23,381 nt of DNA from NCBI RefSeq assembly GCF_000341285.1, contig NW_005178448.1:1-23381 (forward strand), in the 5' to 3' direction. A program made the position numbers and the translations under genes. Below, piece by piece: positions 8,457-19,740 of this stretch. Numbering within the stretch: position 1 is the stretch's first letter; each line of letters starts with the position of its first letter. Below the pieces are notes generated by a model, which was given only the letters and a program-made list of their open reading frames with translations, had not been told where the DNA came from and made no database searches. The DNA comes from Galdieria sulphuraria (taxonomy: Eukaryota > Rhodophyta > Bangiophyceae > Galdieriales > Galdieriaceae).

Positions 8457-10157
8457 TTATATTTTTATAAATAATTTTTTTCTATAAAGTATCCAAGCTA
8501 TGACTACCCAGAATAACGTGAACACACTGGCAAAGGAAAGACTCGCAAACTCAGTATCACCCAACAAAGTTACTGCCGAGTGTCGATAGAGCCACTGCTT
8601 CAAAGGCATATGAGAAACCTATCCACAATATCGTTCACTTATTTTCACTACAAATACCTTCTCTAAAATTCTCACTTGTATACTTAATAACGCTGCGTAA
8701 TCCAGTAAAAACGAAGCTGCGAAGAGAAAAAAACTATTTCTTCCAACCCAAAGACAAGGTTGTACTAATCCTGGATATCTACCGTAAACCAAAACCCACA
8801 ATAACAATATGCAATTCTTCCTATACTCACTTGGAGTAACTTTTGCCCATAAGCCACAGAATGAAAGACACCAGAATGAGCAACCAACAGTTAAGAATAG
8901 AAAACTATATGAATAAGTTTTTCTTGTTCTTGCAAGCAACAACCTTTGATACCTTGCAGTCCATAGCGGTTTGCTAATAGGAACACTATCTGGAAAGCAG
9001 TCAACCAAAAGTATTTCTATCCCAACGAATGAACTTCCTATTAAGAAACACCACAAGATACGTTGATTAACATATCTCAAAGATGAGGTTAGTCTAGCCT
9101 AATCATAACGCAGTGATATGTCAAATAACGGTAAGACCACTATTTCTATGATCAGCATTACCGCTTCCAAACCAGCAAATGTATTGATGGTGGCCATCAA
9201 AGTGGATAGGATTCCTTCAGGATCATATTCTAAATGAAAATAAAGATGTTTGCCTCCCAATATCATCTAAACTTGTTCTATATCATTATTATACACACAA
9301 TGGAAAGGATGGACTAACCGTATCTAGATAAGATTGTGCACTAGTTGACGTGAGATATGAGACTCTGTGGCAAGATATAGATAGGGGTGCTTACCTACAA
9401 GCTCTCGTTAACCTTTCGGAAATAAGACAATTGGGAACTATTAGACCATACAACAAACTGGTGTGTAATAAAAACAACACTAGAGAGAATACATCAATAT
9501 ACATAAATGTAGAGTAACAACCTTTACCTGAAACCAACGCATATTGTATCACTCTGCTGTTGACAAATAGAAACAAAAACGCCACACATCCATAACATAT
9601 CGCAATACGCTGCAATATTCCCATCCAACGCAATGTTTCCCATCGAAAACCGGATAAAGGAACGTTCAATAATACACCAACTAGAAACAGCTTGATGGTA
9701 CGACTTGTGACACCTGTAACCAAAACTCAGAAACAACACAAGGTGAAATATCTCTCACACTCAACTACGCAGTGCTTTGTCTTTTTCCTCCGAATTCTCA
9801 ACTTCTCTTGGTACCTTGCGAAAGGCAAAATAGATGGAAGAACCCACCATAAACAAAAAAAAGGGAAATATAAGATCTGCCATATGCCAAGAAAACCAAG
9901 ACTCGTGTTTAAAAACGGAATACATTTTATCAAAGTTTCCTGACATTCCAACTTCAACTCAAGTCTTGGTCACGTAACCATCAGTTACCTTGATCCTTTC
10001 CTAGAATCATAAGGATGATGCAAAGACCCCGAAACACATCGAGACCAACATCTCTTTCTACGGCTTTTGTATTGAGTTGATCGACCCATATGTGTGACCT
10101 TTCTTGTTTTGAATATCGGTGGTGGTCTAACAAAGGTTGGGTTTCTTGCTTCGCCAT
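8457..10157 (-). CDS. HGSNAT-family multispanning acetyltransferase (heparan-alpha-glucosaminide N-acetyltransferase-like)
   Basis: Integral membrane protein of the family that in animals transfers acetyl from cytosolic acetyl-CoA to glucosamine in the lysosome; the algal substrate is unknown. Exons in order: 10157-9989, 9939-9769, 9713-9528, 9479-9395, 9340-9319 (22 nt), 9266-9162, 9098-8953, 8904-8658, 8618-8457; about 430 residues. After a 40-residue polar N-terminus come the signature VGLDVFRGLCIILMIL, WHMADLIFPFFLFMVGSSIY, RWMGILQRIAICYG, LTRACSAQSYLDTMILGGKH, YDPEGILSTL and PISKPLWTASFLFLT. It ends with YRKKLFIKI, typical of the family. About ten hydrophobic segments are present. It lacks the lumenal N-terminal domain of the human enzyme and so resembles the short bacterial/plant form. 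Uncertain points: a 60-nt in-frame segment (8771-8830) with a perfect GTGAGT donor may be a ninth intron, and the last acceptor could be 24 nt further on. Confidence 0.85.
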
Positions 10158-10196
10158 CCCCACAAACAACAATAAATAATCTTTTTCTAGTTATTA
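10158..10196. promoter_or_regulatory. 39-bp divergent region between HGSNAT-like gene and thiamine-phosphate synthase
   Basis: Only 39 bp lie between the two start codons. At least one transcript must begin inside the other gene's first exon, or both have almost no 5' UTR. The segment is A/T-rich with a TAATCTTTTTCTAG stretch and no clear TATA box. Shared promoter function is inferred from geometry. Confidence 0.45.
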
Positions 10197-11222
10197 ATGG
10201 ATCGTCAAAGAGGCTATTTATTATCGATCATCAGTTTTCTCCATCCTATTTCTTTGTTTTCACCAAAAAGTTTCAAGTTTTTAGAAACAAGGAATCCATT
10301 CCGACGAACACAGTATTCTCATTCTCCTCTCTATCCAAGGAAGGAAGCAAGAGCTTTGCCGATCAAAGCAACCCAAGACTCAGTCGATTACTCCTTATAT
10401 TTGGTTACTAGTGGCACAGATAAAGATATTGATTGTCTATTGGAGGTAAGGAATCACTCCTAAGAGTTTTCAATAGGAAGCAACTTTATTCAGAAGGTCA
10501 AAGCAGCTTTGAGTGGAGGAGTAACTATTCTGCAGTTGGTGATATCTTTGGAATATTTGTTTCATGATCTACTCAACTCTATTTAGATATCGAGATAAAC
10601 ACAACTCTACTCGAGATATGATTCGAATGGGAAAGGAACTTTTACATTTGGCTCATTCCTTTCAAGTTCCATTGTTATTGAATGATAGAGTAGACGTTGC
10701 TTTAGCTATCGATGCGGATGGAGTTCATATTGGTCAAGTAATGTAGACATATATATATATATAATCGTATTTATGTCTTCATTTTGTGCTTATGAATAGG
10801 ATGATATGCCACTCGTTATGGCCAGAAGGTTATTAGGATATGGAAAGATAATTGGAGTATCAGTTGGAAATGAAGAAGAAGCAATAGTTGCCGAACAACA
10901 AGGAGCCAATTATGTGGGAGGTATAGATAAGAAAACTTTTCTCAGAATCATTTTGTGTGTGAATGTATTTCTAGTTGGTTCTATTTTTGCTACTTTTAGT
11001 AAAGCAGATGCTGGAGAGCCCATAGGGTTACAAGCTTTGAGAAGTATTGCTAGTGCAGTTTCTTCTATTCCTGTAATTGCAATTGGCGGTATCAATGAAC
11101 AAAATGCAAGTCAGTGTATACAAAATGGAGCCAAAGGAGTTGCTGTTATTTCTGCAATCTTATCCTCCAATGACCCTCAACAGGCAGCAATAAATCTCAA
11201 AAAACAAATTGTCCACTTGTAA
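10197..11222 (+). CDS. Thiamine-phosphate synthase (ThiE-type), probably plastid-targeted
   Basis: Joins hydroxymethylpyrimidine diphosphate to the thiazole phosphate to make thiamine phosphate. Exons 10197-10445, 10494-10534, 10587-10737, 10800-10920, 10975-11222; 269 residues. The first 65 residues are basic and Ser-rich (MDRQRGYLLSIISFLHPISL...), typical of an organelle transit peptide. The TIM barrel follows: LYLVTSG, ALSGGVTILQYRDK (pyrimidine-site Q and K), PLLLNDRVDVALAIDADGVH, then across the last splice NYVGVGSIFATFSKADAG, the ThiE 'GP-F-T-TK' phosphate loop with Phe-Ser in place of Pro-Thr, and IPVIAIGGI near the C-terminus. The second donor (GTTGGT) is chosen because only it restores QYRDK. 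The fourth intron is 54 nt and open in frame, so retention would add 18 residues. It is a stand-alone ThiE, whereas land plants fuse ThiD and ThiE. AATAAA starts 7 nt after the stop. Confidence 0.9.
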
Positions 11223-15824: not shown

Positions 15825-17619
15825 ATGACTATGGATAGCGGTATGCTTTATATTCACTGTCCATTTTTATCACAATATAAAAACCAAAGAAGTTTGGCTA
15901 CCCATGAAGTTTTTGCCTGGTTTTTGAAACAAAGACGTTGTCCTGTGGCTAGAAAGACTCCCTGTCGTTTTGTTATTTCGTCTCGTTTTGTAGAACAAGA
16001 AGAACAGACAGAGAGGAACAAACGAGTTGAAAACTTTTCCGTACAAACAAACCTCTTAGAAACTGATTCCAGTGAGAATTTAAAAGGTTTTATCAAAACC
16101 AGAGGATGTTTGATACCCGATATTCCATTTGTGTTTTGGTGGTAAGGGCGTGATTCCTTCTGTGGGTTTGTTCATTAGTTGAATTGGTAAATACAAGGTC
16201 AGGAGATATCTACTCTCTGATAGAAGATGAGCCCAGCAGGTGGGTGCAATGAGTTGTGGGTTATAGCGATTATCGACCATCTTTTATCTTAGACATTTAT
16301 TCGAATTTGAAGGATTCAATATTGGACGGATGAAACGAGTGGATGGTGGTTGGAGATTGCTTACCAGAGAGTTGGCTGTTTACAAGGATCCCAATACTCA
16401 CGAAATTTTGGAACAATGGAAGAATCCCTTTACTGAAGAGATTTGTGAAGTGGTCCATGTGCTGAACGATCCCGTGAATCAAGAGTTTCTATTGAAAGGA
16501 CCAAGAGGAACATTTAAAGTATGCATAGTTTGGGTAATGGGAAGCGTCTTACTTTCTTATAGGCACCGATTGTGCGCAATGGTTCGGATATTTTTTGGCA
16601 TGCAGAGATATTTTTGAAGTATCCTTCACCTTTGAAAAGAGAAATGTTTCCACAAGGCATACAGAACGATGAATATCAAAGTGCTGAATTGTTTCAGTTT
16701 TATACCAAAGAAGAGGATTTGAAGAGAGTTGATTGTCCTTATTCACCTTCACAAGTACGTATATCACTTATTTGTACTTGAATGATGGATTATCATCACT
16801 CGAAATATTTAGTTTTCTTGGGTACGCATAGGACAATGGTTGCCTTTTATGAAAATGGGTGACAAGTCAGGAAGACTTTTGTATCATTGCAGAGGTAAAA
16901 GACTAGAAAAGGGATACCAGGACTTGAGTGAGCAGGTAATATTCGTCCCAATCTTATAATGTTTGGTTTTGACAGCGTTTAAGATTCGAACATTTGTTGA
17001 GCGATATTATCCGGAGTATATGGATGCACCAACCAATTATTCAACACCAAATGAAACTTCATGGACATACTTTAAAAAGTATGGAATGTCCTATATATCG
17101 AAGAACGAAATATGAAAACGTAACTCTAGGTTGTTGAGTAGAAGAGGATTTCCAAGAGCAGATGGTACGAGAGCACATGAAACTGATTGTGAATCACCTG
17201 CGACAGTTTCAACAAATGACTCAAAGATATTTACCTTGGAACAGTTGAATGAATTGGACGGAAGTGATCCCAATAAGCCAATCTACATTTCTATTTGTGG
17301 TATAGTTTTTGATGTTACCAAAGTAAGTCATCGTTGAATAAGATTGAATAGAGTATATTTATAACAGAGTTGATAGGGGAGAAGACATTATCGTAAAGGT
17401 GAAACTTATCACAATTTGGTTGGAAGAGAAGCAAGTCGAGCATTTCTTACTGGTGACTTGAGTGAAAGTGGTTTATCAGATGAGAGCATTGATTTGAATA
17501 GCTTGACAGAGGAACAACGTCTAGACTTGCAACATTGGGTAGAATATTTCCAAAGTGAATATCCACAAGTTGGCTTTCTAGACAATTGGCAAAGTCATTT
17601 CAGTGGACGACGAAAGTAG
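15825..17619 (+). CDS. DUF1838 protein fused to a neuferricin/MAPR-like cytochrome b5 domain
   Basis: Exons 15825-16141, 16198-16239, 16293-16518, 16563-16754, 16813-16935, 16984-17078, 17130-17322, 17377-17619; 476 residues. The first 75 residues are basic and may be a transit peptide. Residues about 83-332 match DUF1838 (function unknown): NLKGFIKTRG, FWWSGDIYSLIEDEPSRHLF, VDGGWRLLTRELAVYKDP, VVHVLNDPVNQEF, SWVRIGQWLPFMKMGDKSG, PNETSWTYFKKLLSRRG. The last 120 residues are a MAPR/CYB5D2-type haem-binding domain: FTLEQLNELDG, IYISICGIVFDVTKG, YHNLVGREASRAFLTGD (Tyr of YHNLVG is the expected haem ligand), then a CYB5D2-like SLTEEQRLDLQHWVEYF tail. The fusion rests on a 51-nt intron (17079-17129, GTATGG...CTCTAG) that joins both frames exactly, and on the b5 frame lacking any Met. 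Without that splice the DUF1838 frame ends at 17115 and the b5 exon has no start. Individual domain calls are firmer than the fusion. Confidence 0.7.
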
Positions 17620-17649: not shown

Positions 17650-19740
17650 CTAACGATGCAAAGGCATCGAAGTGTGAATAGCACTCTGTACTTTTTCATC
17701 CCATCGAGTGATGACTGTTTTTGGACGAGTATAAAACTCGAACCCTGTGGAGCCATAGAATGGTAAATCTCCCCACATAGAATCTTTGGATCCTGTGAAC
17801 CCAAAGGGTGGAGCAGGGACTGGAATGGGCAAATTAATTCCAATTTGTCCTACTTGAATATTGCTCTGAAACATTCTTGCAACTACACCCGACTGAGTGA
17901 ATATACTTGTGCCATTTCCATATGGATTGTTGTTGATGAGTTGAATAGCATCATCCAAAGTCTCCACATGTATGCACGAAAGAACGGGTCCAAATATTTC
18001 TAAGCAACAATATAAGAGCTTTGTAAGGGTTAGAATAGGTAGACTCACCTTGTTGATAGACATCCATATGTGGCTTTACTTGAGAAATGATAGTAGGACC
18101 CACCCAGTTACCTTTAGAAGAGGGAACAGAAGCTCTATATTCGATTTTTGCACCTTGTGATTCTGCTGATTGTATCAACTTTTCAACTCTTTGCTTTGCC
18201 TTTTCAGTAACGAGTGGACCCAAGTCACTTCCTTCTGCAGTACCTAATACTAAGGACTGCGTTCTCTTTACGAGTTCTGAAATCCAATTTCCAGCCTCTC
18301 CAACCTATATATATTTAGAAATGCATCAATGCATTTTCTAAAAGTTGTAGGATACATACAAATACACCCACGGATATTGCCATACATCTTTGACCACTTG
18401 CTCCAAATGCAGCTCCTATGAGAGCATTCAATGCAGTGTCTTTGGCAGCGTCAGGCATAATGACGGCATGATTCTTAGCTCCCTTTACAAGAGTCCATAT
18501 TTATGACAAAATGTGAAAGATGAACTATGCACTCACCATGTTACATTGTGCTCGGATTCCCCTTTCACTAGCCTTTCTATAAATATGACGACCCACCGGT
18601 GTGCTTCCAACAAAGCTTACTGCCTTCAAACCAGGATGTTCCAACAGACAATCGACTGTCTCTTTCCCTCCCTAATAAAACCAAACCCAATATTCATTCA
18701 CCATACTTGAAATGCTGTTGTCAACACTGACTTGAACCACATTAAATACACCAGGTGGAAACTGTGCTTCATCTACAACTTGAGCAATCAGTTCTACTGC
18801 CCCTGGTACCAACTCTGAAGGCTTCAAGACAATTGTATTGCCAACTACAGTGGACATGGGAAGCATCCATAATGGAATCATAGCAGGAAAACTGCGACTC
18901 TCAATAACCAGAAACAACAATGACTAATGCTTTACTTACTTGAAAGGACAAACTCCCAAACAGACACCTAAAGGTTCTCTCATCTATTATTCCCAATCAT
19001 ACCAAACCTCAGTACATCATTTTATCACCCAACCATTCATCCACTTTACCTGCATCATATCCACATTGGTTGCAACATTCTTTTGAAACATTCCTTCCAA
19101 TTTGCCTGCCTTTCATAGTACAAGTTGATATTATTATCTTTGCAGCATACAATTACTACTTACAGCTCCACAAGAATACTCCACAATTTCCAATCCACGG
19201 GCAACATCACCTTGAGCATCAGCAGGAGTCTTTCCCAACTCTCGGGTTATCACTTGGGCTATATCTTTGGATCTCTTCTTAATTCCCTGGAAACGAACGT
19301 CAATCTCTGCCTGTGAAAAATTCTCATCAACTCCCTCGTACCTCACGCAATTGAAAGATATAATTCAAGCGTCTTCCAATAGGCGTAGTTGACCAGCTTC
19401 CAAACGCCTCCTGTGCTATCTGCATGACTTGGTCCACCTTGGAAAGTTTACGTGGACCCAGTTATGAATTTCAACGTTTCTTACCTCCTGCCTGGTTGTT
19501 CCTGGAACCTTTTGTAGAGTTTCTCCAGTAGCAGGATTGGTTACTGTGTGAATGATGGGACCATTACTGAAGTACACGGTTGCGCAAACAACACACCGTC
19601 GAAATTGAAGCACCAGCTTACCTTGTTACAAATTTTCCCCCAACAAAGTTATGTACGGTTGGTAACAGTCCCACATCTTCTTTTTTGGCGGAAGTTTGTA
19701 CCAACCTTTTAGGATAATATTTCCAAAGCTTCGTAGCCAT
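17650..19740 (-). CDS. Methylmalonate-semialdehyde dehydrogenase (acylating), mitochondrial (ALDH6 family)
   Basis: Converts methylmalonate semialdehyde to propionyl-CoA and CO2, with NAD and CoA, in valine and pyrimidine breakdown in mitochondria. Eleven exons: 19740-19622, 19566-19485, 19437-19342, 19286-19164, 19109-19050, 18983-18940, 18891-18732, 18671-18537, 18482-18360, 18304-18049, 17999-17650; 515 residues, normal for the family. The N-terminus [18 protein letters not shown] is a basic amphipathic mitochondrial presequence. Family landmarks: [121 protein letters not shown], the catalytic Cys in [34 protein letters not shown], and the ALDH6-type end [19 protein letters not shown]. The third intron acceptor was placed at 19287 because it gives a normal 55-nt intron and the best family match. 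Its stop is 30 bp from the stop of the convergent fusion gene. Confidence 0.95.

Follow-up and report, generated by a model that had tools for sequence, protein, structure and literature searches.

A DUF1838-cytochrome b5 fusion protein conserved in red algae, from a gene of Galdieria sulphuraria: architecture, distribution and a possible role in the plastid

Galdieria sulphuraria carries, in the window analysed here (a stretch of 23,381 nucleotides of a 12.0 Mb genome in 102 contigs), a gene whose product joins a DUF1838 domain to a cytochrome b5 domain of the MAPR type. The DUF1838-b5 fusion is real: removal of seven short introns (44-58 nt each, every one GT..AG) gives an open protein of 476 residues, and both domains are found by alignment in 38 of the 120 homologues listed from 126 matches (about 5.8 billion proteins searched, E <= 0.001). 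The features of the gene are the following:

15825..17619, forward strand: whole fusion gene, 8 coding exons, 476 amino acids (spliced model, 475/476 identical to public P0001)
15825-16141, 16198-16239, 16293-16518 and 16563-16754, forward strand: coding exons 1-4
16813-16935, 16984-17078, 17130-17322 and 17377-17619, forward strand: coding exons 5-8
15825..16079, forward strand: N-terminal extension, residues 1-85, with a PFL motif apparently of the red-algal transit-peptide type; residues 1-56 disordered in the model
16131..17133, forward strand: DUF1838 domain, residues 103-333, six introns inside (Pfam PF08894, E 2.1e-73)
17079..17129, forward strand: intron joining the DUF1838 and b5 frames, 51 nt, GTATGG...CTCTAG (from sequence, P0001 and orthologues)
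17134..17235, forward strand: linker, residues 334-367, a conserved RxDG segment followed by residues 341-357 of low model confidence
17236..17577, forward strand: MAPR-type cytochrome b5 domain, residues about 368-463 (Pfam stretch 368-427), holding the next intron
17323..17376, forward strand: intron within the b5 domain, 54 nt

The fusion had been proposed in a first-pass annotation, and the frames, coordinates and splice signals on which it relied were all as claimed when checked on the sequence. Left unspliced, the DUF1838 frame runs ...SWTYFKKYGMSYISKNEI and ends at a TGA (17113-17115); the b5 frame holds no methionine ahead of its own next stop, and excision of the 51 nt puts both frames in register, as had been stated. 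This intron can be regarded as correct because the spliced 476 residues agree with the public protein P0001 ('Neuferricin [Galdieria sulphuraria]'), the sole change being T193S. Moreover, the chain is continuous through the junction in the alignment of the 38 fusion proteins, with PNETxWxY upstream and RxDGxxA downstream each invariant (38/38), a continuity far beyond chance. An earlier placement of intron 5 at 16928-16975 was dropped in favour of 16936-16983, as given by the public protein and the orthologues. The Pfam and homologue searches used that earlier placement (TFK for SEQ at residues 298-300), the effect of which should be slight, and P0001, whose letters are correct, was used to build the alignments and to run the first structure job.

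The existence of two adjacent genes, falsely merged by annotation, could draw on the stop that the unspliced DUF1838 frame has at 17113. Against this, the b5 frame lacks a start codon and the junction is identical in all 38 proteins, obtained from genomes, metagenomes and transcriptomes; the probability of such a merger is negligible. Orthologues encoded as two genes had been named by the first-pass annotation as evidence against its proposal, and one-chain proteins were found instead. Among these, at least four have transcriptome sources: MMETSP for P0020 and P0027 and, judging by their accessions, transcriptome shotgun entries for P0007 and P0019. The question of a single mRNA is thereby answered for relatives.

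The DUF1838 half is best explained as a calycin-like beta-barrel, with stand-alone relatives that are bacterial where named. It matches the PF08894 profile with 247.4 bits (cut-off 25), covering profile positions 5-231 of 232. DUF1838-only proteins such as Dehalococcoidia P0038 (domain identity 54%) have the same invariant residues as the fusion protein, the barrel residues that never vary in the fusion proteins being likewise invariant in them. Unlike the fusion, they stand alone, and no relative of its b5 domain was found in the best 80 of 325 bacterial DUF1838 loci. Barrels of the calycin type, namely nitrobindin, DUF3598/BFA1 and the CpcS/CpeS phycobilin lyases, have 3-11% identity to DUF1838, which differs from them in extra C-terminal helices bearing the PNETSWTYF motif. 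No match was obtained when the DUF1838 alignment (A3) was searched against PDB sequences.

The b5 half is matched by Pfam Cyt-b5 at residues 368-427 (E 1.4e-5, 25.4 bits against a cut-off of 23.7), and both its sequence and its fold are nearer to PGRMC1 than to classical b5. Classical cytochrome b5 has an HPGG haem motif and bis-His ligation; no HPGG is present in P0001, the corresponding site being RRHYRKGETYH. The fold and the haem-pocket tyrosines are common with PGRMC1, Dap1, neuferricin/CYB5D2 and Arabidopsis At2g24940 (1t0g, 1j03). Y401, Y407 and Y458, as in PGRMC1 and Dap1, are kept in 38/38 fusion proteins, and haem binding through tyrosine is expected. The site of PGRMC1 D120 and CYB5D2 D86 (residue 414 of P0001), a functional residue not known to us as family-defining, is Asp in 35/38 fusion proteins and Glu in the three Galdieria-group proteins (P0001-P0003), including the product of this gene. 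A search with the b5 part alone gave only four proteins: three fusions of the Galdieria type and a single fungal b5 protein.

To our knowledge, MAPR-type b5 proteins are lone b5 domains, often N-terminally membrane-anchored; unlike them, the domain described here is soluble and C-terminal to DUF1838. No membrane anchor was found in P0001 (top 19-residue hydropathy 1.06), whereas CYB5D2 carries a transmembrane segment, according to PMC3899279. The fused protein is not filed as a neuferricin/CYB5D2 orthologue, since it has no N-terminal transmembrane segment and DUF1838 precedes the b5 domain. The 'neuferricin-type' b5 fusion initially claimed is thus supported by the public gene model, the red-algal orthologues and Pfam, with the qualification that the protein is no neuferricin orthologue in the narrow sense. 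Further, the same genome has an apparent second MAPR-like gene (locus L093, G000 C6:133000-136500; match at C6:134669-134839, minus strand, weak E of 0.0086), in which a hydrophobic stretch, read by eye, lies ahead of a PGRMC-like b5 domain.

The first-pass annotation had also called for a search for proteins with both domains. Both are flagged by the database in 31 of the 38 fusion proteins, and the remaining seven align across the b5 domain, including Pyropia vietnamensis P0036, where the b5 scores 20.9 bits, under the cut-off. Another 81 of the 120 listed homologues have DUF1838 alone and are bacterial where named. P0083 (Pyropia yezoensis I4F81_001827) keeps only the last b5 residues and misses the first part of DUF1838, its public model being probably a gene-model error. 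Ten fusion proteins are tied to an organism by the listing, and all are from red algae (three confirmed by look-up, the others taken by us to be so): Galdieria sulphuraria, G. phlegrea (our reading of the label 'Galph1'), Gracilaria domingensis, Agarophyton chilense, Erythrolobus, Timspurckia, Porphyridium aerugineum, P. purpureum, Cyanidiococcus and Pyropia vietnamensis. The other 28, mostly metagenomic and without an organism name, are assigned to red algae on account of the fusion and their tree position, another host being possible for some. Searching with a profile of all 38 produced 132 matches, and the 120 of them that were listed include no further fusion. No cryptophyte, glaucophyte, diatom or green plant is among the named rows listed from this database, whose sources include EukProt and MMETSP.

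In a quick IQ-TREE analysis of 144 DUF1838 domains, 37/38 fusion proteins form one clade (SH-aLRT 99). P0042, a fusion protein on a long branch, joins beside this clade along with the DUF1838-only P0058, and the program flags the join as possibly false. The Cyanidiococcus, Galdieria, porphyridialean, Pyropia and Gracilaria/Agarophyton sequences fall into separate subgroups, as expected for a fusion older than the split of those lineages. Bacterial rows near the clade include Chloroflexota, the forks there being weak or open. That Cyanidiophyceae share the gene with other red algae indicates a single, ancient gene retained by them. Most likely, the domains were joined once, ahead of the split between Cyanidiophyceae and the other red algae, and have been kept since.

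The N-terminal extension was studied in the 28 fusion proteins in which it has at least 80 residues, ten shorter starts being excluded as probably incomplete. Phenylalanine is present within residues 1-25 in 26/28 of them (shuffled mean 18.0) and [AST]F[VLAI] or PFL in 18/28 (shuffled mean 1.8), with 0/2000 shuffles as high in either case; since the motif was picked after inspection and the sequences are related, these counts are support and not proof. According to PMC2222254, an N-terminal Phe is needed for import into cyanelles and red-alga-derived plastids, and Porphyra precursors resemble this Phe-type signal, red-algal import experiments being lacking. Judging from these extensions, the fusion protein is probably imported into the plastid.

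Public databases already contain the fused protein, where its labels ('Neuferricin', 'Neuferricin-like', 'Cytochrome b5-like Heme/Steroid binding') derive from the b5 end. P0001 is the same gene and P0035 ('Neuferricin-like [Porphyridium purpureum]') an orthologue; both are two-domain proteins whose DUF1838 half goes unnamed. In the open-access literature (subscription journals and preprints lying outside its scope) neither a description of a DUF1838-b5 fusion nor neuferricin in red algae was found; for neuferricin and algae in general, one mosquito transcriptome paper came up. The architecture, of which the first-pass annotation knew no description, seems undescribed in that literature, whereas the sequence itself is not new. 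There, DUF1838 is named in a single paper, where a table lists it as ArtU, a gene of the antibiotic cluster for aurantimycin, and assigns no function; PMC13155568 concerns a different plant b5-like protein. The window also has, on the minus strand (17650-18923), exons of an aldehyde-dehydrogenase-like gene that by eye resembles methylmalonate-semialdehyde dehydrogenase. It is arranged tail to tail with the fusion gene, some 30 nt past the stop of the latter.

DUF1838 is spread over several bacterial phyla as well as red algae, and its bacterial neighbours offer a second, independent route to its substrate through co-occurrence with DUF3598 in a Bacteroidota order. The best 80 of 325 loci were kept, each with up to about 10 kb per side, and neighbour groups were defined by profiles from neighbour clusters and assigned from record titles. 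The 20 Bacteroidota loci contain a TonB receptor (20), LeuC-like (17) and LeuD-like (15) proteins, MFS (14), HMG-CoA-lyase-like protein (13), aldehyde dehydrogenase (13), DUF3598 (11) and CpeT (9), and these clusters also hold FAD oxidase and enone-reductase-like genes. Solute-binding protein (8) and DUF3598 (3) occur in 12 Chloroflexota loci, and DUF3598 in three of six other Actinomycetota loci; it was found in none of 31 Streptomyces, 9 Cloacimonadota, one Eremiobacterota and one Hyd24-12 loci. Reading the Bacteroidota cluster as tetrapyrrole catabolism (LeuC/LeuD-like hydratase, HMG-CoA-lyase-like protein, CoA-transferase III) is speculation; the open-access literature gave nothing bearing on it, nor did an approach from haem chaperones or phycobilins.

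At the level of whole genomes, DUF3598 was found in five of seven DUF1838 genomes, four times close to DUF1838 and once, in G001, on a separate contig, and CpeT was found in two of the seven; among 14 control genomes Synechococcus elongatus alone gave a DUF3598 or CpeT signal. Among 248 genomes of one Bacteroidota order (that of G006), DUF1838 occurs in six and DUF3598 in five (G006, G217, G294, G310 and G318), all five inside the six; the two genes are 2.2-3.2 kb apart on one contig in four of these five and on different contigs in the fifth. With the centre genome excluded, as it was chosen for DUF1838, 4/4 DUF3598 genomes fall among 5/247 (hypergeometric 3e-8, relatedness ignored). CpeT near DUF1838 was given no weight as a phycobilin clue, being present in 56/248 genomes of the order and thus unspecific. 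In Chloroflexota, DUF1838 is rare (2/101 genomes, one being the centre genome).

Thirteen plasmid records carry DUF1838 (Novosphingobium 7, Streptomyces 2, Embleya 2, Nonomuraea 1 and Calothrix 1). In the cyanobacterium Calothrix sp. NIES-4101, plasmid2 (L095, 45732-46298), a partial DUF1838, which looks like a remnant, lies near transposase genes. Locus L015, from an Actinomycetota metagenome-assembled genome, was rejected as a DUF3598-DUF1838 fusion: Pfam shows DUF1838 only and the frames show two genes with overlapping ends. There (about 8825-10287), the end of a DUF3598-like gene (recognised by cluster profile, not Pfam) overlaps the DUF1838 start, which suggests translational coupling.

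The best explanation for these data, put forward tentatively, is a soluble two-domain protein, nuclear-encoded and probably located in the plastid, in which the haem domain assists a barrel that binds a ligand or acts as a catalyst, perhaps on tetrapyrroles. The barrel would hold or convert a small hydrophobic molecule, for which a tetrapyrrole (haem or bilin) is the foremost candidate, and the tethered MAPR domain would deliver haem or electrons to that ligand. The preference for a tetrapyrrole over a lipid is only slight; it comes from the nearest folds, some of which are barrels that bind haem or bilin, and from the synthesis of phycobilins out of haem in red plastids. The redox, monooxygenase-partner or haem-transfer role suggested in the first-pass annotation would fit MAPR biology and is unproven. 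A haem/bilin-handling protein of the red-algal plastid, with DUF1838 acting on a tetrapyrrole and the MAPR domain supplying haem or electrons, is a possibility of rather low probability.

Among the alternatives, the MAPR domain could donate electrons to, or regulate, a cytochrome P450 or an oxygenase like it, in the manner of Dap1 and PGRMC1, with DUF1838 bringing a lipid or isoprenoid substrate. MAPR proteins work with P450s, according to PMC9449707 and PMC5366339, and the FAD oxidase, aldehyde dehydrogenase and enone-reductase-like genes of the Bacteroidota clusters would agree with this; however, the fused protein lacks an anchor, its N-terminus looks plastid-directed and the genome seems to have another MAPR-like gene with a hydrophobic stretch, which leaves such a partnership doubtful. 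Less probable still is a haem carrier or buffer, where the b5 domain binds haem and the barrel, itself without any chemistry, offers a second site for haem or porphyrin: no relative of this b5 domain was found in the 80 bacterial loci described above, and the place of DUF1838 among catabolic genes in Bacteroidota suggests a substrate. Finally, the Galdieria b5-like domain could be haemless and a mere binding module, considering the Glu at residue 414 and the loss of haem binding reported for CYB5D2 D86G; the exchange of Asp for Glu is conservative, though, and the three haem-pocket tyrosines never vary, so that this appears quite improbable.

The conserved fusion to a haem domain, which recurs across red algae from Galdieria to the distant Porphyridium and Gracilaria, ties DUF1838 to haem chemistry and makes its role testable at the bench. 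If the haem/bilin reading is true, the protein would add an overlooked step to the way the red plastid turns haem into phycobilins or keeps haem in balance; in bacteria, DUF1838 and DUF3598 would then form a pair with related molecules as targets.
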